A DNA stretch of 44,697 nt from Lysobacterales bacterium (lineage in GTDB: Bacteria > Pseudomonadota > Gammaproteobacteria > Xanthomonadales > Xanthomonadaceae): positions 1-44,697 of the forward strand of contig JAATFG010000129.1 of NCBI GenBank assembly GCA_015655355.1. The letters are read 5' to 3'. Made by a program: the position numbers and the translations under genes. Shown piece after piece: positions 16,461 through 32,592 of this stretch; position 1 is the stretch's first letter, and each line of letters opens with the position of its first letter. Below the pieces are notes generated by a model. That model saw only the letters and a list, made by a program, of their open reading frames with translations, did no database searches and was not told where the DNA came from.

Positions 16461-16477
16461 AGTCCATATAGTGGACA
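16461..16477. promoter_or_regulatory. Operator copy 2, AGTCC-N7-GGACA
   Basis: AGTCCATATAGTGGACA shares AGTCC-N7-GGAC with the first copy and has 5-base perfect arms GTCCA/TGGAC. It covers the candidate -10 (TATAGT) of the reductase promoter and the -35 region of the oxygenase promoter. A protein bound here could shut off both directions at once. Confidence 0.6.
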
Positions 16478-16609
16478 CTTGTCTCAAATTAATGATCGGC
16501 GTATCAATACCGCCTTGTCAACAAGACGCTTGCGTGTCGCGAGGGCAAAGCGCGACGACTGCAGTGCGTTGCGCACGATCATTCAATGCGGCAACCGGAG
16601 GAGGATTGC

Positions 16610-16678
16610 GTGTACATACCAAGCGTGTTTTTCGCATGGCGCCAAGGCGCGGGAGGATTGCATGTCCGCACGCCATGA
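16610..16678 (+). CDS. Possible 22-residue leader peptide overlapping the reductase start
   Basis: A GTG at 16610 follows the very strong ribosome-binding site GGAGGAGG by five bases and opens a 22-codon frame ending in TGA at 16676-16678, which overlaps the first codons of the reductase gene (ATG 16662) in another frame. The element GGAGGATTGC followed by a start codon (GTG, then ATG) occurs twice, 52 bases apart. Translation of the short frame would carry ribosomes over the true start. It may instead be a chance product of a duplicated ribosome-binding site. Confidence 0.3.
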   Translation: MYIPSVFFAWRQGAGGLHVRTP

Positions 16679-17912: not shown

Positions 17913-17931
17913 GTCTGGAGCGATACAGACT
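17912..17931 (+). other. Hairpin between reductase and transporter genes
   Basis: AGTCTG (17912-17917) and CAGACT (17926-17931) are perfect inverted repeats around eight bases, beginning on the last base of the reductase stop codon. No T-run follows, so it is not a classic terminator. It could be an mRNA-stabilising or processing hairpin between the two genes, or an operator. Confidence 0.35.
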
Positions 17932-18012
17932 GCTTCACGTTTTCCCCAACTTCACGTGGTGTTGTGCGAACAACCACCAATCGCCATTGCATCCACTTTT
18001 TCTGGAACCAAG

Positions 18013-19242
18013 ATGAATTCCACACACATCGCGAAAGACGCCGCAGAGCCGCGCCTCACCTCATATCGCTGGTTCGTTCTCCTCCTGTGTTGGCTGTGCT
18101 TCGTCCTGACGTCGGTCGATCGCTCTGCATGGGGGCCATCGTCGCTTGACGTCGGGAAATCTCTGGCCGTCCCACTCGCCAGCCTCGGCGTCTTCGCGAC
18201 GACCTATTACATCGGCTACGTCATTTCCAACGCCGGCGGCGGCTGGCTGGGCGACAAGTTCGGCGGACGCAACATCATTTCCATCTCACTCGTCGGCGCC
18301 GGTCTCTTCATGCACGCCTTCGGCTCGACCACCTCAGCCGCCGTCGGCATCGTCGTGCAAGGCCTGGTGGGATTTTTCGCCGGCGCGGAATACAGCGCCG
18401 GCATCAAGCTGCTAACCAGTTGGTTCCGGCAGAAGGAACTGGGCAAGGTGATGGGCATATATACCTCCGCCACGGCGCTGGGTGTGCTGGTTGCCAATAC
18501 GGTGGTCCCGCGCCTGATCAGGCACTACGACTGGACCACGTCCTATCACGTGTTCGGCGCCGTCTCCGTGGTGGTCGGCATTCTCTGCTACATCGTGCTG
18601 CGCGCCGGGCCCGTGTTCACTGCGCCAACTGTGAAAGCCAATGGCGCGAAGGCCGGTTATGCCGAGCTGTTCAAAAACAAGGATTTGATGCTGGTCGCCT
18701 TGTCCGGGTTCGGCGGCTTCTGGGGCACGTACGGTTTCGTCACCTGGTCCAACGCGCTGATGATCAAGGGCCACGGGATTTCCCCCATTACCGCCGGCAC
18801 CATCGTGTCGATCTATGCGGTGATGGGCATCTTCGGCAAGCCCCTCATCGGCTGGATCTCGGACAAGTTCGACGGCGCGCGGCGCGTCCCGGCGATGATC
18901 ATGTACGCGCTGTTCGCCATCATGCTGGTCGTGTTCGGTTTGATGAAATCGGAAACCGGCTTCATGCTCGCCGCACCGCTGCTGGGACTGGGCGCGTACT
19001 GCTATCTGCCGATGGTCGTGGCGCTGGTGCCGGATCTGGTCGGCACGAAGAATGTTGGCCTGGCGGCTGGCGTGATCAATGCCTTGTGGCAACTTGGCAG
19101 CATGCTGGTCCCGGTTGTCGTGGGCGGCGTGTTCGCAGCTACCCATCACAACTTCCTAGCCGCACTGGGCACACTGGCCATCGGCCCGGTCATCGCCCTG
19201 ATCACGATGTATTTCGTCAACGAGCGCTCGGCCAGCGCCTGA
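18013..19242 (+). CDS. MFS transporter, probable aromatic-acid uptake (module A)
   Basis: This 409-residue major facilitator protein has about 12 hydrophobic segments. The loop between helices 2 and 3 carries the family motif as GGWLGDKFGGRN, and the matching loop 8-9 is GWISDKFDGARR. The overall pattern resembles the anion:cation symporter branch that carries phthalate, glucarate or hexuronates. The N-terminus MNSTHIAKDAAEPRLTSYRW is cytoplasmic. The ATG at 18013 was chosen because the 36 codons open above it are not membrane-like and lie in the gap. It lies 100 bases after the reductase on the same strand and presumably imports the substrate of module A with protons. Substrate cannot be stated from sequence. 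Confidence 0.87.
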   Translation: MNSTHIAKDAAEPRLTSYRWFVLLLCWLCFVLTSVDRSAWGPSSLDVGKSLAVPLASLGVFATTYYIGYVISNAGGGWLGDKFGGRNIISISLVGAGLFMHAFGSTTSAAVGIVVQGLVGFFAGAEYSAGIKLLTSWFRQKELGKVMGIYTSATALGVLVANTVVPRLIRHYDWTTSYHVFGAVSVVVGILCYIVLRAGPVFTAPTVKANGAKAGYAELFKNKDLMLVALSGFGGFWGTYGFVTWSNALMIKGHGISPITAGTIVSIYAVMGIFGKPLIGWISDKFDGARRVPAMIMYALFAIMLVVFGLMKSETGFMLAAPLLGLGAYCYLPMVVALVPDLVGTKNVGLAAGVINALWQLGSMLVPVVVGGVFAATHHNFLAALGTLAIGPVIALITMYFVNERSASA

Positions 19243-19346: not shown

Positions 19347-20132
19347 TCATGGCGCGATGACGGCTTCGACCCGCCCCACGCCTTGCAGCACCGCGACCAG
19401 CGATGCGGGCTGGTGCCGCGGGATGGAACCGACGAACGATCCGGTGGTCACCAGGGTGCCGGCCGCGACCGTGCGGCCACGGCGCGATTGCTGGTTGACG
19501 AACCAGGGCAGCAGCGGAAACGGATCGCCCATCTTGTGCCCGCCCACCGTGTCGGCGATGGTTTCGCCGTCCACGTCGAAACGCACGGCCAGCGTGCGCG
19601 GATCGATGCGGCGCCAATCGGTCACCGCTTCGCCGGCAACGAAGGCGCCGCAATTCTGGTTGTCGGCCAGTTGGCTGAAGCGGTCCACTTGCCGGTAATC
19701 GTGGAAGCGGCTGTCGGCGATCTCGATCGCCGGGACGATCGCGTCGATGGCGTCGCGCACTTCGTCGTCGGCATACGCCGCGGCGCGCGGCGGCAGGTCC
19801 CGGCCGAAGCGATAGGCGATCTCGACTTCCAGGGTGCAGGCGCCGAACTGCGACAGGAGGAAATGCGCCGGATCGTGCCGGACCATGTGGCCGGGAATGC
19901 GCGCGGACGTCTTCGGTCCAATGCCGCCCTTCGCGCCGACCTTGAAGACGTCGCTGGGGCCCAATATAGCCATCACCGCGTCCTGCACCGCATGGGCTTC
20001 AGCCTCGTTCGCGGGCCGCGCGTGTTCGGGCAATGCGGGCAGGGTACGGCCGCGGCGGCGCGCATCCAGCAACAGCTCCGCGGCCGCGGCCACGCGCACG
20101 GGATCGATCTGCTCGTCGGACGATGGGGTCAT
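19347..20132 (-). CDS. 2-oxopent-4-enoate hydratase / oxalocrotonate decarboxylase family protein
   Basis: This 261-residue enzyme is of the fumarylacetoacetate-hydrolase superfamily, MhpD/XylJ/DmpH branch. The metal ligands expected from MhpD (Glu106, Glu108, Glu139) are present as Glu102 and Glu104 (TLEVEIAY) and Glu137 (AIEIADSRF), and FKVGAKGGIGPKTS precedes them. Family members hydrate 2-hydroxydienoates or decarboxylate oxalocrotonate after meta ring cleavage. No extradiol dioxygenase, hydrolase or aldolase is present in the window, so the substrate here is unclear. The ATG at 20132 is preferred over one two codons earlier because GAAGGA then has proper spacing. It is the last gene of module B and converges on the MFS gene of module A. 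Confidence 0.85.
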   Translation of the reverse strand: MTPSSDEQIDPVRVAAAAELLLDARRRGRTLPALPEHARPANEAEAHAVQDAVMAILGPSDVFKVGAKGGIGPKTSARIPGHMVRHDPAHFLLSQFGACTLEVEIAYRFGRDLPPRAAAYADDEVRDAIDAIVPAIEIADSRFHDYRQVDRFSQLADNQNCGAFVAGEAVTDWRRIDPRTLAVRFDVDGETIADTVGGHKMGDPFPLLPWFVNQQSRRGRTVAAGTLVTTGSFVGSIPRHQPASLVAVLQGVGRVEAVIAP

Positions 20133-20169
20133 TTGCATTCCTTCGGCCGGCCGTCGCGCCGGCCCTGCA

Positions 20170-20613
20170 TCAATGGGTCAGCGCGCGCACTACTTCGGCC
20201 GGATAGCCGGCATCGGCGGTGATGACCAGTTGGTCGGACATGGCGCGCAACAGCATCAGGTTGCCGTCCAGGGTCCAGTGCCCGTCGCCGCCGCCGTCGG
20301 TGCCCTGCACGAAGATTGTGGTGATCAGCGGACCGCTGCGTTGCCAGCGCTCGGCACCGGCCTCGAGTTCGCGCATGTCCTCGTGCTGGTGGACCAGCAC
20401 CAGCACGCTGTCGGTCTGCCTGGCCTCGGTTTCCACCAGCGCGCGCAGGCACTCCAGCAGCGCGGGCGGCTCCACCCGCTCCACCTGCACGGCGTCGCTT
20501 GGCGCGATGTCGGCCGTCAACGCTGCGCCGGAAGCGCCGACCGCGACCACGTGCAAGCGCTGCCGGCGCTGCGCGCGCGGATCGTACGCGGGCGAGAGCG
20601 TTTCCGCGTTCAT
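20170..20613 (-). CDS. Unknown 147-residue protein coupled to the zinc dehydrogenase
   Basis: I do not recognise this family. The protein starts MNAETLSPAYDPRAQRRQRL and then has alternating strand and helix: HVVAVGASGAAL, a long helix ALLECLRALVETEAR, SVLVLVHQH, a helix, LITTIFVQGTDGGG and a last strand QLVITADAG. This alpha/beta layout with a glycine-rich first turn is Rossmann-like and faintly recalls an FtsZ/tubulin core without its nucleotide signature, but this is a weak resemblance. It overlaps the dehydrogenase stop codon by four bases (ATGA), so the two are translated together. No cysteine or catalytic motif is apparent. Coding is well supported by the coupling and by the compact operon. 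Confidence 0.72.
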   Translation of the reverse strand: MNAETLSPAYDPRAQRRQRLHVVAVGASGAALTADIAPSDAVQVERVEPPALLECLRALVETEARQTDSVLVLVHQHEDMRELEAGAERWQRSGPLITTIFVQGTDGGGDGHWTLDGNLMLLRAMSDQLVITADAGYPAEVVRALTH

Positions 20614-21725
20614 TCCCACGGGCTCACCGTGCAGTGGATGGCGCCGGGCAGGCCCTGCCCGCCGACGGTGCGCAAGGCCTGGTCGACCTCGGCCAGCGGG
20701 AAGGTGTGCGTGCACATGCCGTCCAGCGCGTACCTGCCCGAAGCGATGATGCCGAGCCCGAGTTCCACCGCGTCCCACGAATGCCCGCGCATGCCTTTCA
20801 CGGTGAGGAAGCGCGAGATCAGCACGTCGCTGTCGAATTCGGGAATCTTCTTGAACTTGCGCCCGCCCATGATGATGCGCCCGCTCTTGCGCGCGAGGTT
20901 GATCGCCGACACCACCGTTTCGGTGCCACCGGACGCGCAATCGATGACCAGATCGGCCATCTCGCCGCCGGTGGCGTCCTTCACCGCATCAAACAGGTTC
21001 ACCTTGTCGACGTTGACGGTGTAATCGGCGCCAAGCTGTTTCGCCAATGCGAGGCGACGCTCGTCCGCCGGCGTGGACAAGCCGGTGACGATGATGCAAC
21101 TGGCGCCGGCCTCCTTCGCCGCGACCACGCAGGCCAGGCCCTGCTGGCCCGGGCCCTGGATCACCACCGCCTCGCCGATGCGCGCCTTGCCTTGCAGGTA
21201 GGCCCATTCGACGCCATTGCCCAGCGGCAACGCCAAGGTCGCCTGTTTCGCCGGCACGTGGTCGGGCACGCGATGGAACACCGAATTCGGATGCAGGTAC
21301 TGGAAGCGGCTGTAGCCGCCCCACAGCGACGGCGCGCGGCTGATCGGCGTGGAGCCGTAGCGCACCGCATCCGGACGGTTCAACGTGTCGGTGGCATCGC
21401 ACAGGCGGAAGTCGCCGCTGCGGCAATACTTGCAATGCCCGCACGGAAGATATTCCTCCAGCGCGACGCGATCGCCTTCCTTCACGCCGAAACGGTCGCG
21501 CGCGATCCTGCCCAGGGTTTCGACCCGGCCAACCGGTTCGTGGCCGAGGATCAACGGCCCCTTGGTGCCGGGATATTTCTGGTAATACGGCCAATCGCTG
21601 CCGCACACGCCGGTCATTTCGACGCGCAACAAGCCGGCATCGTCGGAAATGTCGGGCATCGGGATTTCGGCGACTTCGGTGCGTCCGAATTCGTAGGAAA
21701 CCGCTGCAACCACGCTCTCGCTCAT
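20610..21725 (-). CDS. Zinc-dependent medium-chain alcohol dehydrogenase (module B)
   Basis: This 371-residue MDR dehydrogenase has catalytic-zinc ligands Cys41 (GVCGSDW), His62-Glu63 (GHEPVGRV) and four structural-zinc cysteines, Cys95, Cys98, Cys101 and Cys109 (CGHCKYCRSGDFRLC). The coenzyme domain carries VVIQGPGQQGLACV and VDLIDxASGG-type strand (LVIDCASGGTETV). It resembles the threonine/sorbitol dehydrogenase branch. In module B it stands where a dihydrodiol dehydrogenase would be expected, directly after the Rieske oxygenase gene, so it may oxidise the oxygenase product; an alcohol or aldehyde substrate is equally possible. The ATG at 21725 has GGAG six bases upstream. Confidence 0.9.
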   Translation of the reverse strand: MSESVVAAVSYEFGRTEVAEIPMPDISDDAGLLRVEMTGVCGSDWPYYQKYPGTKGPLILGHEPVGRVETLGRIARDRFGVKEGDRVALEEYLPCGHCKYCRSGDFRLCDATDTLNRPDAVRYGSTPISRAPSLWGGYSRFQYLHPNSVFHRVPDHVPAKQATLALPLGNGVEWAYLQGKARIGEAVVIQGPGQQGLACVVAAKEAGASCIIVTGLSTPADERRLALAKQLGADYTVNVDKVNLFDAVKDATGGEMADLVIDCASGGTETVVSAINLARKSGRIIMGGRKFKKIPEFDSDVLISRFLTVKGMRGHSWDAVELGLGIIASGRYALDGMCTHTFPLAEVDQALRTVGGQGLPGAIHCTVSPWE

Positions 21726-21787
21726 TGCTTGCTCCATCGACCACCGGCGCATTGCGCCGGTGGCGTCGTCACGGATTGATGTTCTGG

Positions 21788-23068
21788 TCAGATCGAGGTG
21801 TGGCTGATGCCTTGATGGGCAAGCAGCGCCTCGCGCCTGGCTTCGTGGAAAGCCTCGTCGACCGGCAGCAGGAACGAGGCCGAACGCACGAAATGCGATT
21901 CCGGCTCCAGCCCCGGCGGGGTTTCGCCGGACTTGGCCAGGGCCAGCGCCGCCTTCTTCAGGCGATGCCGCGCCATGATGATGGCGTTGTCGGTCGAGAC
22001 CAGGTTCTCGTGCGTGCGGTCCTGCACCGCGCCCATGCTTTCCTGCAACGAGGCATCCTGCATCGCGATGCCGCGCACGCCGCTGTAGTACAGGCCGGCC
22101 TTCTGCGCATCGCGGTCGATCTTGTAGTCGTTTTCCTTGCTCAGCAGCGGGCGGAAGGTACCGGGGATGAACTGGGTGTGGATGCCCTTGCCGCTGCGCA
22201 TCGCGGTCAGTTCGTCCTCGCTCAGCGGCCGCGTCGGGTGGTAGGTGAAGGTCCACGCAAAGCAGTTCTCGTCGTCGATCGGCACCCACGCGTGGCCGTT
22301 GAGCGGGTTGTCGCCGTACGGCGGCACCATCGAGAACATCGGGAACATCCATTGCGTCACCCGCCAGTAGTACTCGCCCGGCCCGGCGTTGCGGCGCGCG
22401 CCGATGTACAGGCCGCCGCTGGATTCGACGATCTCGAATTTCGGCGCACGATCACGCTGGTATTGCGCGCCCTGGGTCGAACGATGCAACGGATCGGAAT
22501 TCAGTTCGCCGCTGTGCAGGAACGAAACGTGGCTGGAATCGATGCCTCCCTCCATCGCCTGCAGGTAGTTGTTGTACTGCAGGCGCTTGGTGTTGAAACG
22601 CTGCACGTGCGGCACCTGGGTCCACTCGTAGTTCGGCGCCGGCGGCTGCAGTTCCGGCGGGCCCAGGTAGGCCCACAGGATGCCGCCGGCCGCGATCAGC
22701 GGATACGACTTGAGCTTGACCTTCGAGCAGAACCCGCTCTCGGCCGGTTCCGACGGCACTTCGACGCATTCGCCCTTCACGTTGTATTTCCAGCCGTGGT
22801 ACGGGCAGCGGATGCCGCCTTCCTCGTTGCGGCCGAACCACAGCGACACGCCGCGGTGCGCGCAGAACTCGCCGATCAGGCCCAGCTTGTCGTCGCTGTC
22901 GCGGAACGCGATCAACGGTTCCGACAGCAGTTTGACCCGCACCGGCGGGCAATCGGCTTCGGGCAATTCCTCGGCCAGGAGGATCGGGAGCCAGTAGCGG
23001 CGGAACAGGTCGCCCATCGGCGTGCCGGGGCCGGTCTGGGTCAGCAGGGCATTGTCTTCGGCTCTCAT
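21788..23068 (-). CDS. Rieske non-heme iron oxygenase, phthalate 4,5-dioxygenase family (module B)
   Basis: This 426-residue alpha-only oxygenase has a Rieske domain with Cys69-x-His71 (FCAHRG) and Cys88-x2-His91 (RCPYHGWKYNVKGEC). The mononuclear iron site lies in NYLQAMEGGIDSSHVSFLHSG, with His180 and His185, spacing H-x4-H. The N-terminus GPGTPMGDLFRRYWLPILLAEELPEADCPP is typical of the phthalate 4,5-dioxygenase / PobA / aryl-ether oxygenase group, which has no beta subunit. Members hydroxylate or demethylate aromatic carboxylates. The ATG at 23068 begins the homologous part; the frame is open further upstream without homology. It follows the Rieske ferredoxin gene by 67 bases and probably takes electrons from it. 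Confidence 0.93.
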   Translation of the reverse strand: MRAEDNALLTQTGPGTPMGDLFRRYWLPILLAEELPEADCPPVRVKLLSEPLIAFRDSDDKLGLIGEFCAHRGVSLWFGRNEEGGIRCPYHGWKYNVKGECVEVPSEPAESGFCSKVKLKSYPLIAAGGILWAYLGPPELQPPAPNYEWTQVPHVQRFNTKRLQYNNYLQAMEGGIDSSHVSFLHSGELNSDPLHRSTQGAQYQRDRAPKFEIVESSGGLYIGARRNAGPGEYYWRVTQWMFPMFSMVPPYGDNPLNGHAWVPIDDENCFAWTFTYHPTRPLSEDELTAMRSGKGIHTQFIPGTFRPLLSKENDYKIDRDAQKAGLYYSGVRGIAMQDASLQESMGAVQDRTHENLVSTDNAIIMARHRLKKAALALAKSGETPPGLEPESHFVRSASFLLPVDEAFHEARREALLAHQGISHTSI

Positions 23069-23135
23069 GGTCTTCTTCTCGTCTATTGCATGTGGGAGGA
23101 AGCGCGACGCGCGAGGCGTGCGCCGTTTGCAACGT

Positions 23136-23507
23136 TCAAACTTGCGCGCGGCGATCCGGATCGATGCGGATGCGTCCGTCTTCGACGCTGACGGCGTAAG
23201 TGCGCGCCGGTTCGGTGCACGGGGCCGCCGCCACCGCGCCGGTGCAGATGTTGAAAGCGCCGCCGTGGAAATCGCACTCGACCGTTTCGCCATCGATGTA
23301 GCCTTCCGACAACGAACCCGGTCCATGCGTGCACAGGTCGTCGATCACGTAGATCTTCCCCGCCAGGTTGAACACGGCCACGCTCAGGTCGCCGTGCTCT
23401 ACCCTGATCGACTCGCCTTCGATGACGTCGCCGAACGCGCACAGGTCGATCCAGTTTTCTTCATCGGCAACGACCATGTCGGCGGAACGGTTGGCATTCG
23501 GGTGCAT
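23136..23507 (-). CDS. Rieske-type 2Fe-2S ferredoxin (module B)
   Basis: This is a 123-residue soluble Rieske ferredoxin with ligands Cys59 and His61 (LCTHGPGSL) and Cys78 and His81 (VECDFHGGAFN). It is similar to BphF/NahAb-type ferredoxins that shuttle electrons from a flavoprotein reductase to a terminal oxygenase. An internal ATG at codon 11 is an alternative start. It lies between the substrate-binding protein gene (three bases upstream) and the oxygenase gene, an unusual mixing of transport and redox genes. The logical partners are the reductase at 24655 and the oxygenase at 21788. Confidence 0.93.
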   Translation of the reverse strand: MHPNANRSADMVVADEENWIDLCAFGDVIEGESIRVEHGDLSVAVFNLAGKIYVIDDLCTHGPGSLSEGYIDGETVECDFHGGAFNICTGAVAAAPCTEPARTYAVSVEDGRIRIDPDRRAQV

Positions 23508-23510
23508 GTT

Positions 23511-24593
23511 TCATTCGCCTTTCTTCTTGTACGGGCCGAGCTGCTGCACGGCCTTGGCCAGGATCGAGGTATCCATCAGGCTGGCCGCGGTGATCTTCGG
23601 ATTTGAAATCAGGCCCTGGCTGCGGAAGAAGGCCAGGTCGCGCTCCAGGCTGGCGACGTTGACCTTGCCGTTGGGATCGGTGGCCGGCGGCGACATCTTG
23701 CGGTAGATGTCCCCGTCCTTGACCGCGGTGTACTTGGTCAGGATGGCGATGATCGCGTCCGAACCCGGGCCGGCGATGTGGCCGCCGTTCAACACGTCGT
23801 TGTAATCGCGCACGGCGCGCACGTAGGCGCGCATGAAGCGCAGGCCGACGTCCGGCTTGTCCTTCACCAGCGTTTCCGAATACAGCAGCACCGAGGTCTG
23901 CTGGTTCGGATACAGCGTGTCGTTGCCGGCCACGCGCACGGCCAGGCCGGCGTCGATCAGGCGCGTCATCGTCGGCTCGTTGGTGATGCTGGCGTCGATG
24001 CCCTTGTTGGCGTACGCGGCCATGTGTTGCGGGAAGCCGAGATCGACGATGTCCACGTCCTTGTATTGCAGGCCGCCGAGCTTCAACGCCGCGTTCAACG
24101 CCGCCGCGGTGCTGGTGCCTTCGGCGCCGATGGCGACCTTCATGCCCTTCAGGTCCTTGTAGCTCTTGTAGCGGCCGCTATCCACCAGGTCCTTGCGCAC
24201 CATCAAGCCGGAGAACGCGTAGCCCGGCTTGACCGAGCCCTTGTCGGCGACGATGCGTACCGAAATGTCGCGCGAAACCGCGTTGTACAAGCCCGCGGCC
24301 ACGGTGCCGCCGCCGGCATCGAGCTGGCCCGCGCCCAGCGGCGCGACCATGTCGGACGCGGACTTGAACGGGATGAACTCCACGTCCAGGCCTTCCTGCT
24401 TGAAATACCCGCGCTCCTGGGCGATGTAGACGCCCACGTCGCTGGCGACGCCGACCACGCCGACGCGGAGCTTGGTCTGCGCCATCGCCGGCAATGCGGT
24501 GATGGCCACCGCTGCCGCCGCGACCAGCGCAAGCAGGCGATGGAATGTCTTTCCCGGCGCGCGTGCCGGCGAGTTGTTGCGCGAAATTTTCAT
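23511..24593 (-). CDS. ABC transporter substrate-binding protein, NitT/TauT type
   Basis: This 360-residue periplasmic binding protein has an N-terminal signal (hydrophobic LLALVAAAAVAITALPAMA, cleavage at AMA|Q, residue 38). The NMT1/SsuA-like domain begins TKLRVGVVGVASDVGVYIAQERGYFKQEGLDVEFIPF. Such proteins bind sulfonates, nitrate, thiamine precursors or aromatic carboxylates such as phthalate. Here the setting favours an aromatic acid. GGAGG lies eight bases before the ATG at 24593. The matching permease and ATPase genes are just upstream but separated from it by the reductase gene, so the transporter genes are interleaved with the oxygenase electron-transfer genes. Confidence 0.92.
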   Translation of the reverse strand: MKISRNNSPARAPGKTFHRLLALVAAAAVAITALPAMAQTKLRVGVVGVASDVGVYIAQERGYFKQEGLDVEFIPFKSASDMVAPLGAGQLDAGGGTVAAGLYNAVSRDISVRIVADKGSVKPGYAFSGLMVRKDLVDSGRYKSYKDLKGMKVAIGAEGTSTAAALNAALKLGGLQYKDVDIVDLGFPQHMAAYANKGIDASITNEPTMTRLIDAGLAVRVAGNDTLYPNQQTSVLLYSETLVKDKPDVGLRFMRAYVRAVRDYNDVLNGGHIAGPGSDAIIAILTKYTAVKDGDIYRKMSPPATDPNGKVNVASLERDLAFFRSQGLISNPKITAASLMDTSILAKAVQQLGPYKKKGE

Positions 24594-24654
24594 TGCGTTC
24601 CTCCCGATGGATGTATCCGATTCGCGCACCGGACTTGCCGGCACGCGCGCTTTT

Positions 24655-25689
24655 TCAGAAATACCGGTCGTAATGGATCTGCGCCGCGGGCACGCCGGCC
24701 TTGGTCAGCTCCGCAAGCACCGCCTCCGCCATCCGCGCCGGCCCGGCGAAATAGACCTCGCTGGAAGCAAGCCGTTCGCCGAGCGTTTCGACGACGTGCT
24801 CGTGCACGAATCCGGTGCGACCGCCCCACGCCGCATCGGCGTCTTGCGGATGCGAAATCGACGCGTGGAAGCGCGCCGTCGCGCCCAATGCTTCGATCAC
24901 GTCCCCGCCCGCGATGTCGTTCACGCTGCGCCCGCCGAAAAAGAAATCGAGCGCGCGATCCGGCAACATGCCGGCCACGGCCATGCCGCGCGCAACCGAC
25001 AACATCGGCGCCAGGCCGGAACCGCCGGCGATGCAGACCACGTTGCGCGGCGCGTCCTCGCGCAGGTACGCGAAGCCATACGGCCCGTCGATGCCGAGGC
25101 GCGCACCGGGCTGCAATGCGTCGAACAGCACGCGCGTGCCCTGCCCGTCCGGCGTCCGGCGCACGATGAAATGCCATTCGCGCGATGCGTTCGCCGTGTT
25201 CGCCATCGAATACGCGCGCACGCCATCGACGCCGGGCAGTTCGAGCAGCGCGTACTGCCCGGGCATGAAGCCCGGATCGGCGTCGAGCCGGAAGCGGAAC
25301 TCGAGCATGTCGTGGGTGACCGCGCGCTTCTCCAGCAAGGTCGCCAGGGTACGTCGCGGCAGGATCACCGGCGCGTATTGCGGCAGCAGCCGGACCTTGA
25401 TCGTGCAATCGCCGCGCACCGCCGACTGGCAGGCCAGGCGCCGGCCGCGTTCGCGATCCCGCGCGGACAGGCCGGGCGCGTCTTCCCGCAGCGTGTCGAC
25501 CTCGCCTTCGACCAGTTCGTAGCGGCAATTGCCGCAGCCACCGACGTTGCACTCGTGCGGGAAAGCCAGCCCCTGGCGCAACGCGGCGCGCAGCAACACC
25601 TCGCCATCGCCGCAGCGGAAGCCGGCTTCGCTGCCGGCGATGCGCACTTCATGCGCATTGGCCACGCGTTGTTCGGGGAAGTGGTTCAT
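24655..25689 (-). CDS. Oxygenase reductase with N-terminal 2Fe-2S, FAD and NAD domains (module B)
   Basis: This 344-residue iron-sulfur flavoprotein has a plant-type 2Fe-2S domain at about 1-100 with Cys47, Cys52, Cys55 and Cys87 (ECNVGGCGNC ... LACQ). An FAD-binding domain follows with the motif RAYSMAN, and then an NAD-binding domain with GGSGLAPMLSVARG. This domain order is that of BenC, NahAa and phenol hydroxylase reductases, not of the FMN-type phthalate dioxygenase reductase, in which the 2Fe-2S domain is at the C-terminus. It should reduce the Rieske ferredoxin at 23136, forming a three-component chain to the oxygenase. It follows the ABC permease by nine bases and is followed by the binding-protein gene. 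Confidence 0.93.
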   Translation of the reverse strand: MNHFPEQRVANAHEVRIAGSEAGFRCGDGEVLLRAALRQGLAFPHECNVGGCGNCRYELVEGEVDTLREDAPGLSARDRERGRRLACQSAVRGDCTIKVRLLPQYAPVILPRRTLATLLEKRAVTHDMLEFRFRLDADPGFMPGQYALLELPGVDGVRAYSMANTANASREWHFIVRRTPDGQGTRVLFDALQPGARLGIDGPYGFAYLREDAPRNVVCIAGGSGLAPMLSVARGMAVAGMLPDRALDFFFGGRSVNDIAGGDVIEALGATARFHASISHPQDADAAWGGRTGFVHEHVVETLGERLASSEVYFAGPARMAEAVLAELTKAGVPAAQIHYDRYF

Positions 25690-25698
25690 CGCACGGCC

Positions 25699-26514
25699 TC
25701 AGTGACGCTTCCACGGAACCAGCACGTGCTCGAGTTCGCGGATGACGGTGGCCAGCAGGAACCCGATCAGCGCGATCACCAGCAGGCCCACGTACATCTG
25801 TTCGACGTCGAAGATTTCCCATGCGTTCCAGATCATGAAGCCGAGGCCGCTCTTGGCCCCCATCATTTCCGCCACCGCGATCAGCACCAGGCCCATGCCG
25901 ATGCCGATGCGGATGCCGGTGAGGATCAGCGGCATCGCGCCGGGCAAGGCGATCGTGGTGAAGAACTGCCATTTGCTCGCGTTGAAATTGCGGCCGACGT
26001 CCATGTAGATCTTCTCGATCTGCAGCACGCCGGTGGTGGCGTTCATCGCCACCGGGAAGAACACGCCGAGCGCGACCATGAACACCTTGGAGCTTTCGCC
26101 CAGGCCGAAGATCAGCAAGGCCAGCGGCAGGATCGAGCTCTTCGGTATCGGATACGTGGCCGCGATCAGCGGCTCGAAGATCACCCGCACCGGCTTGCTC
26201 AGGCCCATCACGATGCCCAGCAGCAACGCCGGAATCCCGCCGATCACGCAACCCCAGAACAGGCGCCGCAAGCTCGCCCAGATGTTTTCGAGCAATTCCC
26301 TCGACTTCAGCATCTCCACCAGCTTGTGGAAAATGTCCGACGGCGCGGGGAAGAAGCGCGTGTCGATCCAGCCCTGCTTGGCGCAGATTTCCCAGATCAC
26401 CAGCAACGCGATCGGCGAGATCAGGGTCATCGCGCGTTCGCCGACGAGCGCGTGCCAGTCCCACCGGCGCGCGCGGCGCACGGCGCGCGGGGGCGATTGA
26501 ACCTGTCCGCTCAT
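25699..26514 (-). CDS. ABC transporter permease, NitT/TauT type
   Basis: This is a 271-residue inner-membrane permease with about six hydrophobic segments. The BPD_transp_1 coupling region lies around NFNASKWQFFTTIALPGAMPLILTGIRIGIGMGLVLIAVAEMMGAKSGLGFMIW, which includes the EAA-like helix and the family's conserved AEMxxAxxGLG stretch. The charged N-terminus AVRRARRWDW is cytoplasmic. Its ATG overlaps the ATPase stop by four bases. It is one third of the module B import system, with the binding protein at 23511 and the ATPase at 26511. Confidence 0.93.
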   Translation of the reverse strand: MSGQVQSPPRAVRRARRWDWHALVGERAMTLISPIALLVIWEICAKQGWIDTRFFPAPSDIFHKLVEMLKSRELLENIWASLRRLFWGCVIGGIPALLLGIVMGLSKPVRVIFEPLIAATYPIPKSSILPLALLIFGLGESSKVFMVALGVFFPVAMNATTGVLQIEKIYMDVGRNFNASKWQFFTTIALPGAMPLILTGIRIGIGMGLVLIAVAEMMGAKSGLGFMIWNAWEIFDVEQMYVGLLVIALIGFLLATVIRELEHVLVPWKRH

Positions 26515-27350
26515 TTTCCGATCCTCTTTTCTTCCAGCGCGCGCGCGGCATACACCTCGTCGCGCAACGCGGCCCAGATGGCGTGCTTGGTTTCGCTGTA
26601 AACGGAGTTGTTCTGCAGGCTGACGAAGTCGCGCGGGCGCGGCAGGCCCACCGGGATGATGGTCTTCACCTTGCCCGGCTGCGCGGTCATCACCATGATC
26701 CGGTCGCCGAGGAACACCGCTTCGTCCACGCTGTGGGTGATGAACACCACGGTCTTGCGGGTTTCGTCCCAGATGCGCAGCAACTCGACCTGCAGCAGCG
26801 CCTTGTTCTGCTCGTCCAGCGCCGAGAACGGCTCGTCCATCAGCAGGATGTGCGGATCGTTGGCGAAGGCGCGCGCGATGGAAACGCGCTGGCGCATGCC
26901 GCCGGACAACTGGTGCGGATAGGACTTGGCGAACTTGGTCAACCCGGTCTTGTCGAGGTAATGCCCCACCGCCTCTTCGATCCGCTTCTTCGGCAGGCCG
27001 CGCATGCGCAGGCCGTAGGCCGCGTTGTCCCATACCGTCATCCACGGGAAGATCGAATCGCCCTGGAACACCATCGAGTTGCCGGGACGGTTGCCGTCCT
27101 CCTTCGGCAGGTTCAGCGTCACCGATCCTTCGCTGGCCTGCTCCAGTCCGGCGAGCACGCGCAGCAGCGTGCTCTTGCCGCAGCCGGAAGGGCCGACGAT
27201 GACGAAGAACTCGCCGCGGTTGATGTCCAGCGAGGTCCGCTCCAGCGCGACGAAGTCGCCGTAGCGCTTGACCAGGTCGCGGATTTCCAGGGCCGGGCGC
27301 ATGGTTGCGTCCGCTTCGGCCGTTCGGGGGAGGGAAACCACGGCGCTCAC
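26511..27350 (-). CDS. ABC transporter ATP-binding protein, NitT/TauT type
   Basis: This is a 279-residue ATPase with Walker A GPSGCGKST (53-61), the Q-loop in SMVFQGDSIFPW, the signature LSGGMRQR, Walker B ILLMDEP followed by FSALDEQNK, and the switch histidine in FITHSVDEA. It powers the permease at 25699. The start used here is a GTG with GGAG nine bases upstream; an ATG 16 codons later (27302) begins exactly at the conserved domain and is equally plausible. Overlap with the permease indicates translational coupling. Confidence 0.93.
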   Translation of the reverse strand: MSAVVSLPRTAEADATMRPALEIRDLVKRYGDFVALERTSLDINRGEFFVIVGPSGCGKSTLLRVLAGLEQASEGSVTLNLPKEDGNRPGNSMVFQGDSIFPWMTVWDNAAYGLRMRGLPKKRIEEAVGHYLDKTGLTKFAKSYPHQLSGGMRQRVSIARAFANDPHILLMDEPFSALDEQNKALLQVELLRIWDETRKTVVFITHSVDEAVFLGDRIMVMTAQPGKVKTIIPVGLPRPRDFVSLQNNSVYSETKHAIWAALRDEVYAARALEEKRIGK

Positions 27351-27401
27351 GCCCGCTTCTCCGGGGCAACAGTCAGGCTTGCTCGAGTCACGATGACGTC
27401 C

Positions 27402-28451
27402 TCAAATCTTGAACAATCGTTCGGCATTGGTCTGGAAGAACTTTTTCTTGTCTTCCGCGCTGATGTTCATCTTGTCGAGGATGCCGACTTCTTCCGGCGC
27501 GTACTGGTACGGATAATCCATCGCGTACATGATCCGATCGGTGCCGATCACGTCCTGCACGAAGCGAATCGACGGCTCCCACGCCACACCGCTGTTGGTG
27601 TAATGAACATTCTCGCGAAGATAATCGCTCACTTTGCGCTTCAGCGGCTTCATGCTTTCGTAGCGCTTGGAAACGACGCCGGCGTTGTGCATGTAGTCCA
27701 GCCGGTACAGCCAGAACGGCAGCGCTTCGCCGGTGTGGCCGAGGATCATCTGCAGCTTCGGGAAACGGTCGAACACGCCGGCGATGATGATGCGCAGCAT
27801 GTGCAGGCCGGTTTCGACCGAGAAGCCGAAGATCGCGCCATCCAGGCCGCGCTCCAGGAACGGCCGGCTCATGTCCTTCGGCGGCGTGAACGGATGCAGG
27901 TAGATCGGCACGTCCAGCGCTTCGGCCGCCTCGAAGATCGGCCAGAACTTCGGATCGTCCAGGTATTCGCCCTGCGTGTGCGAGTTGATGACCACGCCGC
28001 GGAAGCCCAGTTGCTTCACGCTGCGCTCGATTTCCTTCGCCGCGGCAACCGGGTCCTGCGGCGCGCACGCGCCCAGGCCGATGAAGCGGTCCGGATGCCT
28101 GGCGATGCCGTCGGCCATCCAGTCGTTCGCATAGGTGGCGAAGGCCACGGCATCGGCCTTCTCCATCACCTGCACGCCCGGCGAGGTCAGGGTCAGCACC
28201 TGCATGTCGATGCCGGTGGCCTGCATGTGGGCCAGGCGCTTCTCGCCCAGATCGACCAGCTGGTCGTTGATGATCCGCGCGCGCGCACTGGGACTGTTCA
28301 GGTAGAACGCGAACATCGTGTTGAAGGCCGGATCATCGACCTTCTTCTCTTCGACCAGCTTGCGGTAGACGGCCAGCATTTCCGGCGGACAGCACGCCTC
28401 CTCGGTGGCGATGCGGCGGTAATCGGGCGAGGGATTGATCGTTGCACTCAT
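27402..28451 (-). CDS. Amidohydrolase-family metal-dependent decarboxylase (ACMSD/LigW-like)
   Basis: This 349-residue TIM-barrel enzyme is of the amidohydrolase-2 family that includes ACMSD, gamma-resorcylate decarboxylase and 5-carboxyvanillate decarboxylase (LigW). Expected metal and active-site residues are present: Glu17 in RRIATEEA, His186 in YLHPF, His239 in LGHTGE and Asp312 in YAMDYPYQ. The RRIATEEA start is shared with LigW-type non-oxidative decarboxylases. In this cluster a role in removing a carboxyl group from a hydroxylated aromatic acid is likely, which would be one way to reach protocatechuate from a dicarboxylate. A hydrolase activity cannot be ruled out. It lies between the ABC ATPase (51 bases downstream) and the porin gene. 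Confidence 0.85.
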   Translation of the reverse strand: MSATINPSPDYRRIATEEACCPPEMLAVYRKLVEEKKVDDPAFNTMFAFYLNSPSARARIINDQLVDLGEKRLAHMQATGIDMQVLTLTSPGVQVMEKADAVAFATYANDWMADGIARHPDRFIGLGACAPQDPVAAAKEIERSVKQLGFRGVVINSHTQGEYLDDPKFWPIFEAAEALDVPIYLHPFTPPKDMSRPFLERGLDGAIFGFSVETGLHMLRIIIAGVFDRFPKLQMILGHTGEALPFWLYRLDYMHNAGVVSKRYESMKPLKRKVSDYLRENVHYTNSGVAWEPSIRFVQDVIGTDRIMYAMDYPYQYAPEEVGILDKMNISAEDKKKFFQTNAERLFKI

Positions 28452-28487
28452 GAAAATGATCCATTGCGTGGTGGGGGATGTACGGGG

Positions 28488-30029
28488 TCAGAAACGGAAG
28501 GCGCCGTAGGCCTCGATGAAATGCGTGTTCGCGCCTCCGGCCTTCAACACGGCGTCGTCGGCCTTGAAGTAGACGTATTGCGCGACCAGGGTGAAGTTCG
28601 GGAACGAAGCCGGTGCCCAGTCGAATTCGCCCTTCCATGCGGTGCCGATGCGCGTTTCGGTATTGGCGGTGGTGCGCGGCGCGACGACCATGTTGGCCAG
28701 GTACACCGCATCGTTCGCGCTGTAACGCCACAGTTCGTCGGCTTCGACGATCAGCTTGCCGCCCTTGAACGGCTGGATGGACACCAGCGGATCGATCGAG
28801 CGGATGTTCGACCAGCTGCTCAGCGATGCAAGCGTGTACCAGCTGTTGCGCGGATACAGCGGGTTGAACGTGTTGACCTCGCCATCGGCCTTGTTCTTGT
28901 CGCCGGTGGCGATGTCGTAACGCGCGCCGATGCGCGGCTGCAGCGGCACGTCGTCGAAGGTGAAGCCGGTTTCGGTGGCGATGCCCCAGGCCTTGATGTC
29001 GTCATCGGCGAAATCGCCGAACTGGTACATGCCTTCTTCGTTGAAATCCCAGTTGCCGATGCTGCCAAACAGGCGCAGGCCGAGGTTCTTGCGGTTTTCC
29101 TCGCCGCTCTTGCCCGAATAGGTGGCCTTGTCGCGCTGGTAGTCGAGCGCATACGCGTCGAGGTTCAGGCCGGACCTGCCGAGCGGCGTGGTGGTGTAGA
29201 TGCCACTGAACGCGTTGGTGTGATCGGTCTTGTCGTCCCAGTTGTCCGGCCCGAGCAACACCGCATTGGTGTAGAACGCGCTGACGTCCGTGCTGCCGAG
29301 CTTGAACATCGCGCGCACGCCGTCGAAGCTGCGCCGCGTGTTCGGCGCATCGCGCACGCCGATGACGCGCGAAGAGCCGAGCTCCAGTTCCTGCCGGCCC
29401 ACGCGCAAGGTGAACGGCGACCCGGCCACCTTGCCGCTGAGGTCGAGGAACGCCTGCGCCAGGTCGGTCTTGTCCTGATCAGTGGTGCTGACCGAACCTT
29501 CCTTGCTCCACGTGTGCGTGCTGCCGAGCTGGGTGAAGAGGCGCACGTGGTCGCCGAAGTGCCAGTCCGCGTGCACCATCGCGCGGTTCTGGAAATAGCT
29601 GTCCTTGTCGAGGCCGTTCAAGCCCCAGTTCGGGTTGTCGAAGAAGTCGACGTAGGTGATGCGGTAATCGCCGCCGAAGCTGACGTAGGCGCCGGAACTG
29701 CCCAGCGGCACGAACTTCAGCGGCGCCAGCAGGCCCTTGCGATTGGCCGGATCGGCGAAGCTGGAAAAATCCTCGTTCCAGCGCGCCGACGGCGGACGCG
29801 ACACCTGGCCGGCAACGGCCTTCTTCTTGCTCGCCGGCTTCTTGGTGGCCGGCGCGGATGCGTTCGCATCCTGTCCCGCATCGTTGACCGGCGTCGCCGG
29901 CGTTTCCGCGGAGGCATCCGCAGGCTTGGCGCCCTGCACCGCATCCGTCGCACTCACTCCCGCACTTGCCGCTGCCGACAGGCAAAGCAGCAATGCCTGT
30001 CGCAGCTTCTCGTTGTTGATACTTGCCAT
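28488..30029 (-). CDS. Outer-membrane porin, alginate-export-like beta-barrel (module B)
   Basis: This 513-residue exported protein has a signal peptide (LLLCLSAAASAGVSA, cleavage near 23-27), then an alanine/lysine-rich spacer with ATKKPASKKKA, then an Alginate_exp-type barrel with FGGDYRITYVDFF, FTLRVGRQELELGSSRVIGVRDAPNTRRSFDGV and a terminal phenylalanine (EAYGAFRF). It differs clearly from the module A porin in sequence but has the same type of fold. It is the first structural gene after the LysR gene in the module B operon and probably admits the module B substrate. GAGAGGGG precedes the ATG at 30029. Confidence 0.87.
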   Translation of the reverse strand: MASINNEKLRQALLLCLSAAASAGVSATDAVQGAKPADASAETPATPVNDAGQDANASAPATKKPASKKKAVAGQVSRPPSARWNEDFSSFADPANRKGLLAPLKFVPLGSSGAYVSFGGDYRITYVDFFDNPNWGLNGLDKDSYFQNRAMVHADWHFGDHVRLFTQLGSTHTWSKEGSVSTTDQDKTDLAQAFLDLSGKVAGSPFTLRVGRQELELGSSRVIGVRDAPNTRRSFDGVRAMFKLGSTDVSAFYTNAVLLGPDNWDDKTDHTNAFSGIYTTTPLGRSGLNLDAYALDYQRDKATYSGKSGEENRKNLGLRLFGSIGNWDFNEEGMYQFGDFADDDIKAWGIATETGFTFDDVPLQPRIGARYDIATGDKNKADGEVNTFNPLYPRNSWYTLASLSSWSNIRSIDPLVSIQPFKGGKLIVEADELWRYSANDAVYLANMVVAPRTTANTETRIGTAWKGEFDWAPASFPNFTLVAQYVYFKADDAVLKAGGANTHFIEAYGAFRF

Positions 30030-30056
30030 GAGCCCCTCTCCCATTGACGTCGCTCA

Positions 30057-30074
30057 GGTTCGACGTTGCGAACC
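30057..30074. promoter_or_regulatory. Dyad in the module B leader, GGTTCG-N6-CGAACC
   Basis: GGTTCG (30057-30062) and CGAACC (30069-30074) are perfect 6-base arms 28 bases before the porin ATG. The position near or just after the expected transcription start suits a repressor operator or a 5' mRNA hairpin. The GTTCG/CGAAC arms look like those of some IclR-type sites, but no second IclR gene is present. Confidence 0.4.
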
Positions 30075-30130
30075 ACCGGAACAACGTAAGTACGGGGAGA
30101 AAGACACGCCACTATGATCGGCTGACGGTC

Positions 30131-30147
30131 AATAAGAACAACTTAAT
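30131..30147. promoter_or_regulatory. LysR-type box upstream of the module B operon
   Basis: AATAAGAACAACTTAAT holds TAAG-N5-CTTA as a perfect dyad and the T-N11-A core (T30133, A30145). It is in the 172-base gap between the LysR gene and the porin gene, about 110 bases before the porin ATG, which suits activation of the operon by that LysR protein. The region is AT-rich relative to its surroundings. Confidence 0.5.
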
Positions 30148-30201
30148 CTGCTGCACTACAACAAATCGATCGCGCCGGAAAAACCGGGCGCCGCTTTCGA
30201 T

Positions 30202-31245
30202 TCAGGCGACGCTGCGGATGCCTTCGCGCTTCGCGTTGCTCGCCGCGACGCTCAATTTCGGGGTCGCTGCCCCGTGCAGGAGGTCAAGCGCCTGCGGCAA
30301 GCGCCATCCCAGCGTCTTGTGCCGGATCACCCGCTCGATGTGCGACTGGATGATCGGCAGCAGCAGGCTTTCGATGACCGTCGACGCATCGCGATGGATC
30401 GCCAGCCCGACCGTCCGCCGCAGGCAGGGCGTGATGTGCCGCGCATGCAATGCGCCGCTCTGGATCTCCTCGTGGAACAGCCCGTAGGGAACGATCGAGC
30501 AATAACCGCGATGCAGGATCATCTCGCGCTTCATCGCGACCGAATCCACTTCCAGCGCCGAGGACACGTCGATGCCTTCCTCCGTGCACGACTGCTCGAT
30601 CAGGAACCGCGACGAATGGCAGCGGTTGTCCAGCACCAGTTCGAGTTCGTCCAGGGCTTCCCGCCCGATTTCGTCCGGCAGGTGCCCGACCACTTCCGGG
30701 GTCCCGACCAGATACAGGTCTTCCTCGTACAGCGGCATGATTTTCAGCGATGCGGCGGGCTTGGGATCGTAGATGAACGCGGCGGCCAGTTCGCCCCTCA
30801 CCACCAGGTTCCACAAGTCGTCGCTGAAGGCCTCGCGCAACAGCAGCTTTGCATCGGGCGCACGCGCCTTGACATCGCCCAGCAAGTCGACGAACAAGGC
30901 CCGGCCCACGCTGGGCGGCATGCCCAGCGGGATCTCGCCGGCGAGCACCGGCTTGATCGCCTCGGTCACCGCGCGCACCGCATTGTCCAATTCGCCGAGC
31001 GCGACGCGCGCATGCTCGAGGAACACTTCCCCGGCCTTGGTCAACTCGATGCCGCGCGGATAGCGCACCAGCAAGGACGCGCCCAGCAGATCCTCCAGCT
31101 GCTTGATCTGGCTGAACACGGCCGGCTGCGAAATGTGCAGCCGCCGCGCGGCCTCGGCGAAGTTGCCGTACTGCGCGGTCGCCGCCAGATAGCGGATTTG
31201 CCGCAGCGTGATGGCATTGGCGCCATGACCGACAACTTCCTTCAT
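30202..31245 (-). CDS. LysR-family regulator of module B
   Basis: This is a 347-residue LysR-type regulator. Its winged helix-turn-helix (about 13-72) is ITLRQIRYLAATAQYGNFAEAARRLHISQPAVFSQIKQLEDLLGASLLVRYPRGIELTKAGE. An effector-binding domain follows from about 100 (LAGEIPLGMPPSVGRALFVDLL and an Asp/Glu-rich ligand pocket). The sequence type is close to Nac/Cbl-like branches. It is unlike PcaQ, so modules are separately controlled. It lies at the upstream end of the module B operon and is read in the same direction, with a LysR box between it and the porin gene. An imperfect GC hairpin (30172-30191) after its stop may attenuate read-through. The C-terminus is about 40 residues longer than usual. 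Confidence 0.9.
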   Translation of the reverse strand: MKEVVGHGANAITLRQIRYLAATAQYGNFAEAARRLHISQPAVFSQIKQLEDLLGASLLVRYPRGIELTKAGEVFLEHARVALGELDNAVRAVTEAIKPVLAGEIPLGMPPSVGRALFVDLLGDVKARAPDAKLLLREAFSDDLWNLVVRGELAAAFIYDPKPAASLKIMPLYEEDLYLVGTPEVVGHLPDEIGREALDELELVLDNRCHSSRFLIEQSCTEEGIDVSSALEVDSVAMKREMILHRGYCSIVPYGLFHEEIQSGALHARHITPCLRRTVGLAIHRDASTVIESLLLPIIQSHIERVIRHKTLGWRLPQALDLLHGAATPKLSVAASNAKREGIRSVA

Positions 31246-31304
31246 TACCCTTCACCCGATGATCCGAAAGTGGATCGACTGCCCCGATGCTACCCAATCG
31301 CCCC

Positions 31305-31322
31305 CGGCAACTCTTGTTGCCG
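31305..31322. other. Short hairpin between rsgA and the module B LysR gene
   Basis: CGGCAAC (31305-31311) and GTTGCCG (31316-31322) form a 7-base-pair stem with a 4-base loop, in the 193-base gap downstream of rsgA and upstream of the LysR gene, both minus strand. No T-run follows in either direction. It could stop or pause rsgA transcripts or act as an operator. Nearby, GATCC-N6-GGATC (31261-31276) lies just ahead of the LysR start. Confidence 0.35.
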
Positions 31323-31438
31323 CGCAACATTCCGGCGCCTGCGTTCAGTGAGGGTGGATCCACGGAAAACACTTCGCATCGCGGCATTGTTGCCGCCAGC
31401 GGCCAGGTCCGGGTGTGCGCCGGGCGCGCGGCGGGAAC

Positions 31439-32485
31439 TCAGCGTTTCCGGCGTTTCGACGAAGCTTCGGCCTTCTGCTCGGCGAGGCGTTGCGCCAGCT
31501 TGTTCGCCGCGCCGGCCAGTTCATCGCGCAGCTTGAAGTAGTTGTGCAGGCGTGCTTCGTCCAGCGCGCCGCGTTCTATCGCCGCGCGCACCGCGCAACC
31601 CGGTTCGCTGCGGTGCGTGCAATCGCGGAACTTGCACTGCGTGGCGAGTTCCTCGATGTCGGCGAAACCGCCTTCGGCCAGTTCCTCTTCGCCGGTGGGC
31701 TTGAGTTCGCGCATGCCCGGCGTGTCGATCAGGCACGCGCCGGACGGCAACGCGAGCAGCGCGCGATGCGTGGTGGTGTGGCGGCCGCGCGAATCGCGTT
31801 CGCGCACCGCGCCGGTTTTCATTTTCGTTTCGCCAAGCAAGGTGTTCGTGAGCGTCGATTTTCCCGCACCGCTGGAACCGACCAGCACGACGCTCCGGCC
31901 TGCGCCGAGATAGCGATCGAGCATCGCGACGCTGCCCGCATCCTTGGCATTGACCGCGAACACCGGCACATCGAGATTCTTCAATGCGTCAAGCGCGGCC
32001 TGCGCATCGCCTGCGTCGGCCTTGGTCAACACGACGACCGGCTGCGCGCCGCCCCCGCCGACCAGAAACAGGTAACGCTCGATGCGGCGCGGGTTGAAAT
32101 CGTCGTCGAGGCCGACCACGACGAACACCGTGTCGATGTTCGCCGCGATCACCTGCTGGTGGTAATGCTCGCCGGCGGCGCCGCGCTTGATGCTGCTGCG
32201 CCTCGGCAGGATCGACAGGATCTTGTCGCCGTCGAGCAACACCCAATCGCCGACCGCGGCGCGTTCGTGATTCGGGAAGCGCGGACGCATCCACTGCGGC
32301 GGCGATTCGACCTTGAACGAGGTTTCCGGCGCGATGGCGGCGACGTAGCCGCTGCGATGCTGCTCGATGATGCGCGCCACGTTCGCTTGCGGTCGCGCCG
32401 CCAGCGCTTCCTCCCATTCCGGCGGCACGGCGGCAGGCCAGCCGATCAGGCGCAGCGCGGGGGAAACGTCGGGGATTTTCGGCAT
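31439..32485 (-). CDS. rsgA: Ribosome small-subunit-dependent GTPase RsgA
   Basis: This is a 348-residue circularly permuted GTPase that helps 30S subunit maturation. An N-terminal OB-fold region (about 40-95, AAVGDWVLLDGDKI) is followed by the G domain in permuted order: G4 LTKAD (154-157), G1 GSSGAGKST (203-211), then G2 TTTHRALL and G3 DTPGMREL. The C-terminal zinc finger has Cys-x4-Cys-x-His-x5-Cys in QCKFRDCTHRSEPGC. The lysine/arginine-rich tail ends SSKRRKR. It is divergent from alaA. It marks the return to ordinary chromosomal genes after the catabolic region. Confidence 0.94.
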   Translation of the reverse strand: MPKIPDVSPALRLIGWPAAVPPEWEEALAARPQANVARIIEQHRSGYVAAIAPETSFKVESPPQWMRPRFPNHERAAVGDWVLLDGDKILSILPRRSSIKRGAAGEHYHQQVIAANIDTVFVVVGLDDDFNPRRIERYLFLVGGGGAQPVVVLTKADAGDAQAALDALKNLDVPVFAVNAKDAGSVAMLDRYLGAGRSVVLVGSSGAGKSTLTNTLLGETKMKTGAVRERDSRGRHTTTHRALLALPSGACLIDTPGMRELKPTGEEELAEGGFADIEELATQCKFRDCTHRSEPGCAVRAAIERGALDEARLHNYFKLRDELAGAANKLAQRLAEQKAEASSKRRKR

Positions 32486-32592
32486 GGCCGAATTCTAGCC
32501 GGCGGCATGGGCAAAACCGAACCGGCGCCGCCATCTGCCCGTCATATTTCCGATAGACTGCGCGAAATCGACCTCTCCCACCGGTTTTCGCC

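Follow-up and report, generated by a model that had tools for sequence, protein, structure and literature searches.

Module B, a block of twelve minus-strand genes running from position 31245 to 19347 of a Lysobacterales bacterium contig (JAATFG010000129.1, here C59; its entire 44,697 nucleotides form the window analysed), is read with moderate confidence as encoding a three-component variant of isophthalate dioxygenase (IPDO), within a pathway that would lead from an isophthalate-type acid to protocatechuate. A ring with two meta-placed carboxylates, either isophthalate or a hydroxy- or methoxy-isophthalate, would be imported via the porin and ABC importer of the module and dihydroxylated at the 3,4 positions by an alpha-only Rieske oxygenase, with electrons passing from NAD(P)H through a FAD/2Fe-2S reductase and a Rieske ferredoxin. 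A zinc dehydrogenase would oxidise the cis-diol with loss of CO2, and the protocatechuate formed would be cleaved by a protocatechuate 3,4-dioxygenase whose genes are found some 10 kb off. A LigW-like decarboxylase may widen the substrate range, e.g., to 5-carboxyvanillate, by stripping the carboxylate ortho to the hydroxyl from hydroxylated isophthalates.

The oxygenase gene (21788-23068) revealed a Rieske domain (E 8e-18) and a LigXa_C domain (PF19301; E 1.5e-29, 103.6 bits against a cut-off of 27). Its start is probably at 23068 rather than at the start of the long open reading frame (ORF); residues are counted here from 23092. The pattern C77, H79, C96 and H99, which we take to be the Rieske ligands, is present, as is a region with D185, H188, H193 and D346, presumably the iron ligands. 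When compared with naphthalene dioxygenase (alpha3beta3), LigXa_C was found to replace Ring_hydroxyl_A, and module B carries no beta subunit; of the 29 different window genes covered by the Pfam scan, all at or left of 31245, just one encodes a beta subunit, at 13643 in module A. Module A (12466-19242) holds an HcaE/HcaF-like dioxygenase, a short-chain dehydrogenase/reductase (SDR), an HcaD-like flavin reductase and an MFS transporter. The nearest solved chain to the module B oxygenase was the isophthalate dioxygenase 9INA/9IOY (473 bits, E 6e-141, 206 of 408 residues identical, i.e., 50%), followed by 7FHR (E 2e-92).

According to the data statement of its source (PMC12445078), 9INA/9IOY is the isophthalate dioxygenase of Comamonas testosteroni KF1. 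Named there as determinants are G172, T175, R234, I246, F249, H257, I294 and F333, with all activity being lost in the variants R234A and H257F. Alignment placed the two carboxylate anchors R234 and H257 at R244 and H267 of the module B oxygenase. G172, V178 and I294 are likewise kept (G172 as G183, I294 as I304), T175 is replaced by S186 with the hydroxyl retained, and I246 corresponds to V256. Both anchors were conserved in 89 of 90 aligned rows, the exception being L004 with Q for H; for this 48-50% relative (G262), the only partner gene among those tested to score more than 70 bits in the stretches L034 and L035 was an HcaE-like one. The residue at IPDO position 249 sorts the oxygenase tree into sets that need one change each, with F marking 5 iph-like or actinobacterial rows, Y 25 rows (the window among them) and R 59; support for the Y set is weak (59/88). 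The module B oxygenase sits on a long branch beside L043, L045, L047, L048 and L054 (support 89/84), and relatives of the enzyme span proteobacteria, actinobacteria and acidobacteria.

The ferredoxin gene (23136-23507; Pfam Rieske E 1.2e-18) matched the NCBIfam HcaC/AndAb models below cut-off, its solved relatives being the dioxygenase ferredoxins 2I7F and CarAc 1VCK. In the reductase (24655-25689), Pfam located Fer2 at residues 16-91, FAD_binding_6 at 117-205 and NAD_binding_1 at 220-324; among solved chains, 7C3A, the reductase of carbazole dioxygenase, comes nearest (E 3.2e-69). The domains thus lie in the order expected from the sequence-only reading, a model-made note on this DNA that had described an alpha-only oxygenase with a Rieske ferredoxin and a reductase of 2Fe-2S, FAD and NAD domains. 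Its gene inventory was equally borne out, with each ORF present at its minus-strand place and the named families matched far above chance. A known layout of the same kind is that of carbazole 1,9a-dioxygenase CarAaAcAd of strain CA10, described as a homotrimeric alpha-only oxygenase with a Rieske ferredoxin and a FAD/plant-type 2Fe-2S reductase, the counterpart of strain IC177 having a glutathione-reductase-type (GR-type) reductase (PMC10992316). The two systems differ in that the carbazole substrate is unrelated and the oxygenase match is weak (E 1.4e-15).

Likeness to the iphA2CBA1 operon (C. testosteroni KF1, Comamonas sp. E6) comprises an alpha-only oxygenase 50% identical to IphA2 with the same anchors, clustered genes for a dehydrogenase and a substrate-binding protein and, as proposed for module B, protocatechuate as the end product. 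The known isophthalate dioxygenase, however, is described as a two-component system (PMC12445078, PMC13040137), whereas module B has a ferredoxin and an FNR-type reductase. In operons of iphA2CBA1 order (L142, L032), the reductase is of PDR type, the dehydrogenase an SDR and the binding protein of TTT type; in module B, a zinc-dependent dehydrogenase, an ABC importer and a LigW-like decarboxylase are found instead. Actinobacterial orthologues of the oxygenase also differ from module B in having a PDR/VanB reductase. The claim of an unusual hybrid stands against these relatives, but is weakened by the precedent of LigX and carbazole dioxygenase, which likewise work with a ferredoxin and a reductase, and by the Rieske ferredoxin genes near the oxygenase in 55 of the relatives' 87 loci. 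We conclude that such an electron chain is unusual beside an isophthalate-type enzyme, though the arrangement itself is not new in kind. A literature search for a three-component isophthalate dioxygenase, with most subscription journals outside its reach, returned no paper. The claim that no FMN-type reductase is present holds for module B but not for the genome, where a PDR/VanB-like reductase (C102:22846-23784, 44% identical to the Rhodococcus one) adjoins a RegA/PrrA-type regulator on a contig without a Rieske match.

The 87 neighbourhoods comprise the best 80 of 579 confirmed relatives (genome contigs) and 7 of 450 plasmid records with a match; many end at contig borders, so that absences there may reflect incomplete data. 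In 55 of them the oxygenase has a Rieske ferredoxin gene no more than 5 kb away, accompanied within 10 kb by an FNR-type reductase in 23 and a GR-type reductase in 12 (35 in total). Five of the 87 have no such ferredoxin but a PDR/VanB-type reductase at 10 kb or less: the Comamonas iph-like operon, three plasmids of actinobacteria, and L106, where the distance is 6 kb. An FNR-type reductase without nearby ferredoxin was seen in 3/87, and none of these electron-chain genes in 24/87. Four Burkholderiaceae loci (L052, L057, L059, L137) hold the ferredoxin, FNR reductase, binding protein, ATPase, permease, oxygenase and zinc dehydrogenase together, at 50-67% identity to those of the window, each also with a member of the unknown-protein family discussed below. 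Also encoded nearby in L137 are a Gfo/Idh-type protein and two proteins with a 2Fe-2S domain at the C-terminus; the L137 gene at 3281-4273 (Caballeronia), dihydroxyphthalate decarboxylase-like by eye, matched nothing in Pfam (E 1e-8) or NCBIfam (E 1e-20) and was not used.

A LigB-type extradiol dioxygenase gene is located directly upstream of the oxygenase in two close relatives, L047 (8884-9894, Pfam-confirmed) and L054 (5356-6375, by eye), and ring cleavage may accordingly differ between host organisms; the genome of L047 (G387, 5.3 Mb) has 19 oxygenase homologues at E <1e-60. CobW-like GTPase genes, possibly metal-insertion helpers, occur near the oxygenase in L043 (12469-13452, after the zinc dehydrogenase; Pfam-tested there only) and in 16 other loci.

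For the step after dihydroxylation, the zinc-dependent dehydrogenase (20610-21725; Pfam ADH_N/ADH_zinc_N) is proposed as the dihydrodiol dehydrogenase. Conversion of the isophthalate diol to protocatechuate is described as one dehydrogenation/decarboxylation step (PMC13040137), and the dehydrogenases near the relatives' oxygenases match this second step of the isophthalate pathway: a zinc-dependent dehydrogenase lies within 3 kb in 23/87 loci and an SDR in 12/87, while 16/87 have a zinc-dependent dehydrogenase of 58-75% identity downstream of the oxygenase. Both subunits of protocatechuate 3,4-dioxygenase are encoded on the same contig and strand about 10 kb from module B (7583-9468), above curated cut-offs (TIGR02423, 253.5 bits against 126.25; TIGR02422, 344 bits against 296.4). 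The beta ORF (8230-9468) has about 170 surplus N-terminal residues outside the family model, a later true start being probable. The genes at 2389-7544 (minus strand; alpha/beta hydrolase, thiolase, CoA-transferase pair and lyase by Pfam) are, judging from families and order, probably the remainder of the beta-ketoadipate pathway.

The decarboxylase (27402-28451), of the amidohydrolase-2 family, gave E 1.8e-131 with the solved chains 4INF/4QRN against 5.5e-56 with gamma-resorcylate decarboxylase, and 195 of 340 aligned residues (57%) are identical to 5-carboxyvanillate decarboxylase. It shares the HP, GEALP-WLYRLDYMH and MDYPYQY regions with LigW, and the aligned regions around H186, H239 and D312 presumably provide the metal ligands. 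By this homology the enzyme is LigW-like, differing from LigW/LigW2 in gene context. Since 5-carboxyvanillate is 4-hydroxy-5-methoxyisophthalate, a substituted isophthalate, decarboxylase and oxygenase point to the same ring class. LigW-like genes were found in 6 of 369 genomes of the class at E 1e-40, the present genome included. Three plasmids carry LigW-like genes; the annotated products around two of them include no such oxygenase, and the third plasmid is unannotated.

Several observations weigh against the proposed pathway. Isophthalate itself needs no LigW-type decarboxylase, and amidohydrolases occur in 18/87 loci (15/80 with a stricter score), all at most 35% identical to the LigW-like decarboxylase. 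No homologue of the FAA-type enzyme, which belongs to the FAA-hydrolase/MhpD superfamily (19347-20138; FAA_hydrolase in Pfam at E 3e-9; hydratase/decarboxylase models of NCBIfam at about 1e-19, short of their cut-offs), was found in any of the 87 loci. With no FAA-type neighbours and only distant amidohydrolases, synteny therefore does not back the full gene set. In the pocket, F249, L198 and F333 of IPDO are changed to Y259, A209 and I342, the first and last being specificity determinants, so that the substrate may be other than plain isophthalate. Finally, within the window's own Y259 clade, a nearby ferredoxin was found in only 5/24 loci and a ferredoxin with an FNR or GR reductase in 3/24, the corresponding counts in the R clade being 50/59 and 32/59. 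The statement that the module matches no described pathway is thus narrowed to an isophthalate-type acid leading to protocatechuate, while the exact gene set remained unmatched among the 87 loci. That the pathway is self-contained is doubtful, as ring cleavage would depend on the pca genes outside the module.

An unlikely alternative is that the oxygenase is a LigX-like O-demethylase, which would convert a methoxylated isophthalate such as 5-carboxyvanillate to 4,5-dihydroxyisophthalate and formaldehyde, followed by a LigW-like step to protocatechuate and with the zinc dehydrogenase taking the formaldehyde or an alcohol. The LigXa_C match and the 57% identity of the decarboxylase to 5-carboxyvanillate decarboxylase would fit this, and Y259 in place of F249 could touch a ring substituent. 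On the other hand, the nearest solved enzyme is a dioxygenase, the list of solved chains containing none named LigXa, and the dehydrogenase matches threonine/polyol-type enzymes best, with formaldehyde dehydrogenases ranking lower. LigZ is of LigB type, and LigB-family matches were absent from this contig, being found only on C16 and C51. LigX of Sphingobium sp. SYK-6, the 5,5'-dehydrodivanillate O-demethylase, is described as an oxygenase with a ferredoxin and a ferredoxin reductase (PMC6874591, PMC6021390), a likeness to module B; its genes are scattered in SYK-6 (SLG_07770, SLG_08500, SLG_21200), and module B has no LigY partner, the amidohydrolase matching LigW, with LigY chains far lower (E ~2e-6). 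Moreover, IPDO I246, reported to matter for dioxygenation (PMC12445078), is V here, a conservative change.

Conservation of both carboxylate anchors in nearly all aligned rows argues against a substrate outside the isophthalates, in which case the anchors of the clade would bind another acid and the operon would be a local mosaic of borrowed genes. We regard this as distinctly unlikely, although a search of 60 relatives, 36 of them congeneric, gave no oxygenase match at E 1e-100, the 87 loci hold no counterpart of the FAA-type or the LigW-like gene, and the relatives' loci vary in ring-cleavage and decarboxylase-type genes (annotations, Pfam, by eye). It is very improbable that the alpha/beta dioxygenase of module A draws on the ferredoxin and reductase of module B, whether as their main or as a second partner. 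Such sharing would be consistent with the HcaE/HcaF/HcaD-like genes of module A, which has its own flavin reductase, with the genome-wide Rieske search, in which no other ferredoxin was found on this contig, and with the below-cut-off HcaC/AndAb matches. Yet both genes sit inside the module B gene run, and the module B ferredoxin is nearer to the oxygenase-linked ferredoxins of the 55 relatives (42-62% identity) than to the two others of its own genome (35% and 38%), though the ferredoxin tree has long branches. An HcaC ferredoxin above the curated cut-off on C16 could serve module A. That ferredoxin and another on C81 also ruled out the module B protein as the only catabolic Rieske ferredoxin of the genome. 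The C16 locus (28000-33500, L145) is probably a phenylpropionate/cinnamate pathway, with HcaE and HcaC above curated NCBIfam cut-offs and a 3-carboxyethylcatechol 2,3-dioxygenase-like gene; the third small Rieske ferredoxin, C81:206-520 (L144), has a SufS-family gene about 5 kb away.

The unknown protein of 147 residues (20170-20613) had no credible match in Pfam, NCBIfam or PDB sequences. A family profile, seeded from ORFs lying mostly directly downstream of the relatives' oxygenases and grown with the window excluded, found it at E 3.2e-8 among 6,226 sequences, 250 of which were window ORFs; no other window ORF was reported, nor was any of 301 shuffled or reversed copies at E 10. A family member is present in 53/87 loci. 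In 24 genomes chosen by the author from the 80 relatives and searched whole, one strong copy (E <1e-20) was found in each of 22 and none in two, leaving out 11 weak matches (E 6e-6 to 9e-4); of the strong copies, 21 lie within 1.4 kb of an oxygenase match and the remaining one 8.2 kb off. AlphaFold2 predicted, with good confidence (pLDDT 85 and 86), an alternation of alpha and beta elements; a fold search with this model returned nothing at E 0.001 or better, only a loose likeness to receiver domains, LarB and FtsZ. Its profile match places the protein, as a divergent member, in an unnamed alpha/beta family, and an accessory role beside these oxygenases is the best reading.

Upstream in the module, a LysR-type gene (30202-31245; Pfam LysR_substrate/HTH_1), 157 bp upstream of the porin gene, encodes the probable operon regulator. 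The 11 genes following it (30044 to 19347) have intergenic gaps of at most 67 bp and are, from this spacing, likely one transcript. They include the outer-membrane porin of the Alginate_exp family (28488-30044; PF13372 E 4.9e-72) and the importer components, i.e., an ATPase of nitrate/taurine type (26511-27350; Pfam ABC_tran, NCBIfam nitrate/taurine models below cut-offs), a TauC/SsuC-like permease (25699-26514; Pfam BPD_transp_1, NCBIfam TauC and SsuC models below cut-off) and an NMT1/SsuA-like substrate-binding protein (23511-24644; Pfam NMT1). ATPase and permease genes overlap by 4 bp, counting the permease from its first ATG at 26514; its open stretch begins three codons ahead, and family searches used the start at 26523. 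Elsewhere in the window, 1022-2281 matched PF08014, a microtubule-associated tyrosine carboxypeptidase family, at E 4e-119 in this bacterium.

The draft genome amounts to 2.65 Mb in 138 contigs (94% complete, 7.5% contaminated). The contig is probably a true part of it, because the flanking rsgA (TIGR00157 above its cut-off) closely matches homologues in same-genus genomes, with 69-80% identity in 11 of the 12 searched and 68% to a partial gene in the twelfth. The lack of an oxygenase match in the 60 relatives in turn suggests that the gene was gained by this lineage.

One source of hydroxyisophthalate-type acids is the breakdown of 2,4-dimethylphenol, with 4-hydroxyisophthalate described as an intermediate en route to protocatechuate (PMC6127914). 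It is possible, and we propose it tentatively, that a large clade of alpha-only isophthalate-type oxygenases uses a Rieske ferredoxin and an FNR- or GR-type reductase instead of an FMN reductase, together with the unnamed alpha/beta accessory, and is joined here to a LigW-type decarboxylase for substituted isophthalates. The tight linkage of the unnamed family to the oxygenase raises a testable question on Rieske oxygenase maturation or partner choice. According to a 2026 review, isophthalate catabolic genes are validated in two Comamonas strains only, as a two-component system (PMC13040137). If the clade does act on isophthalates, the trait would be far wider than the validated genes suggest, with interchangeable electron chains.

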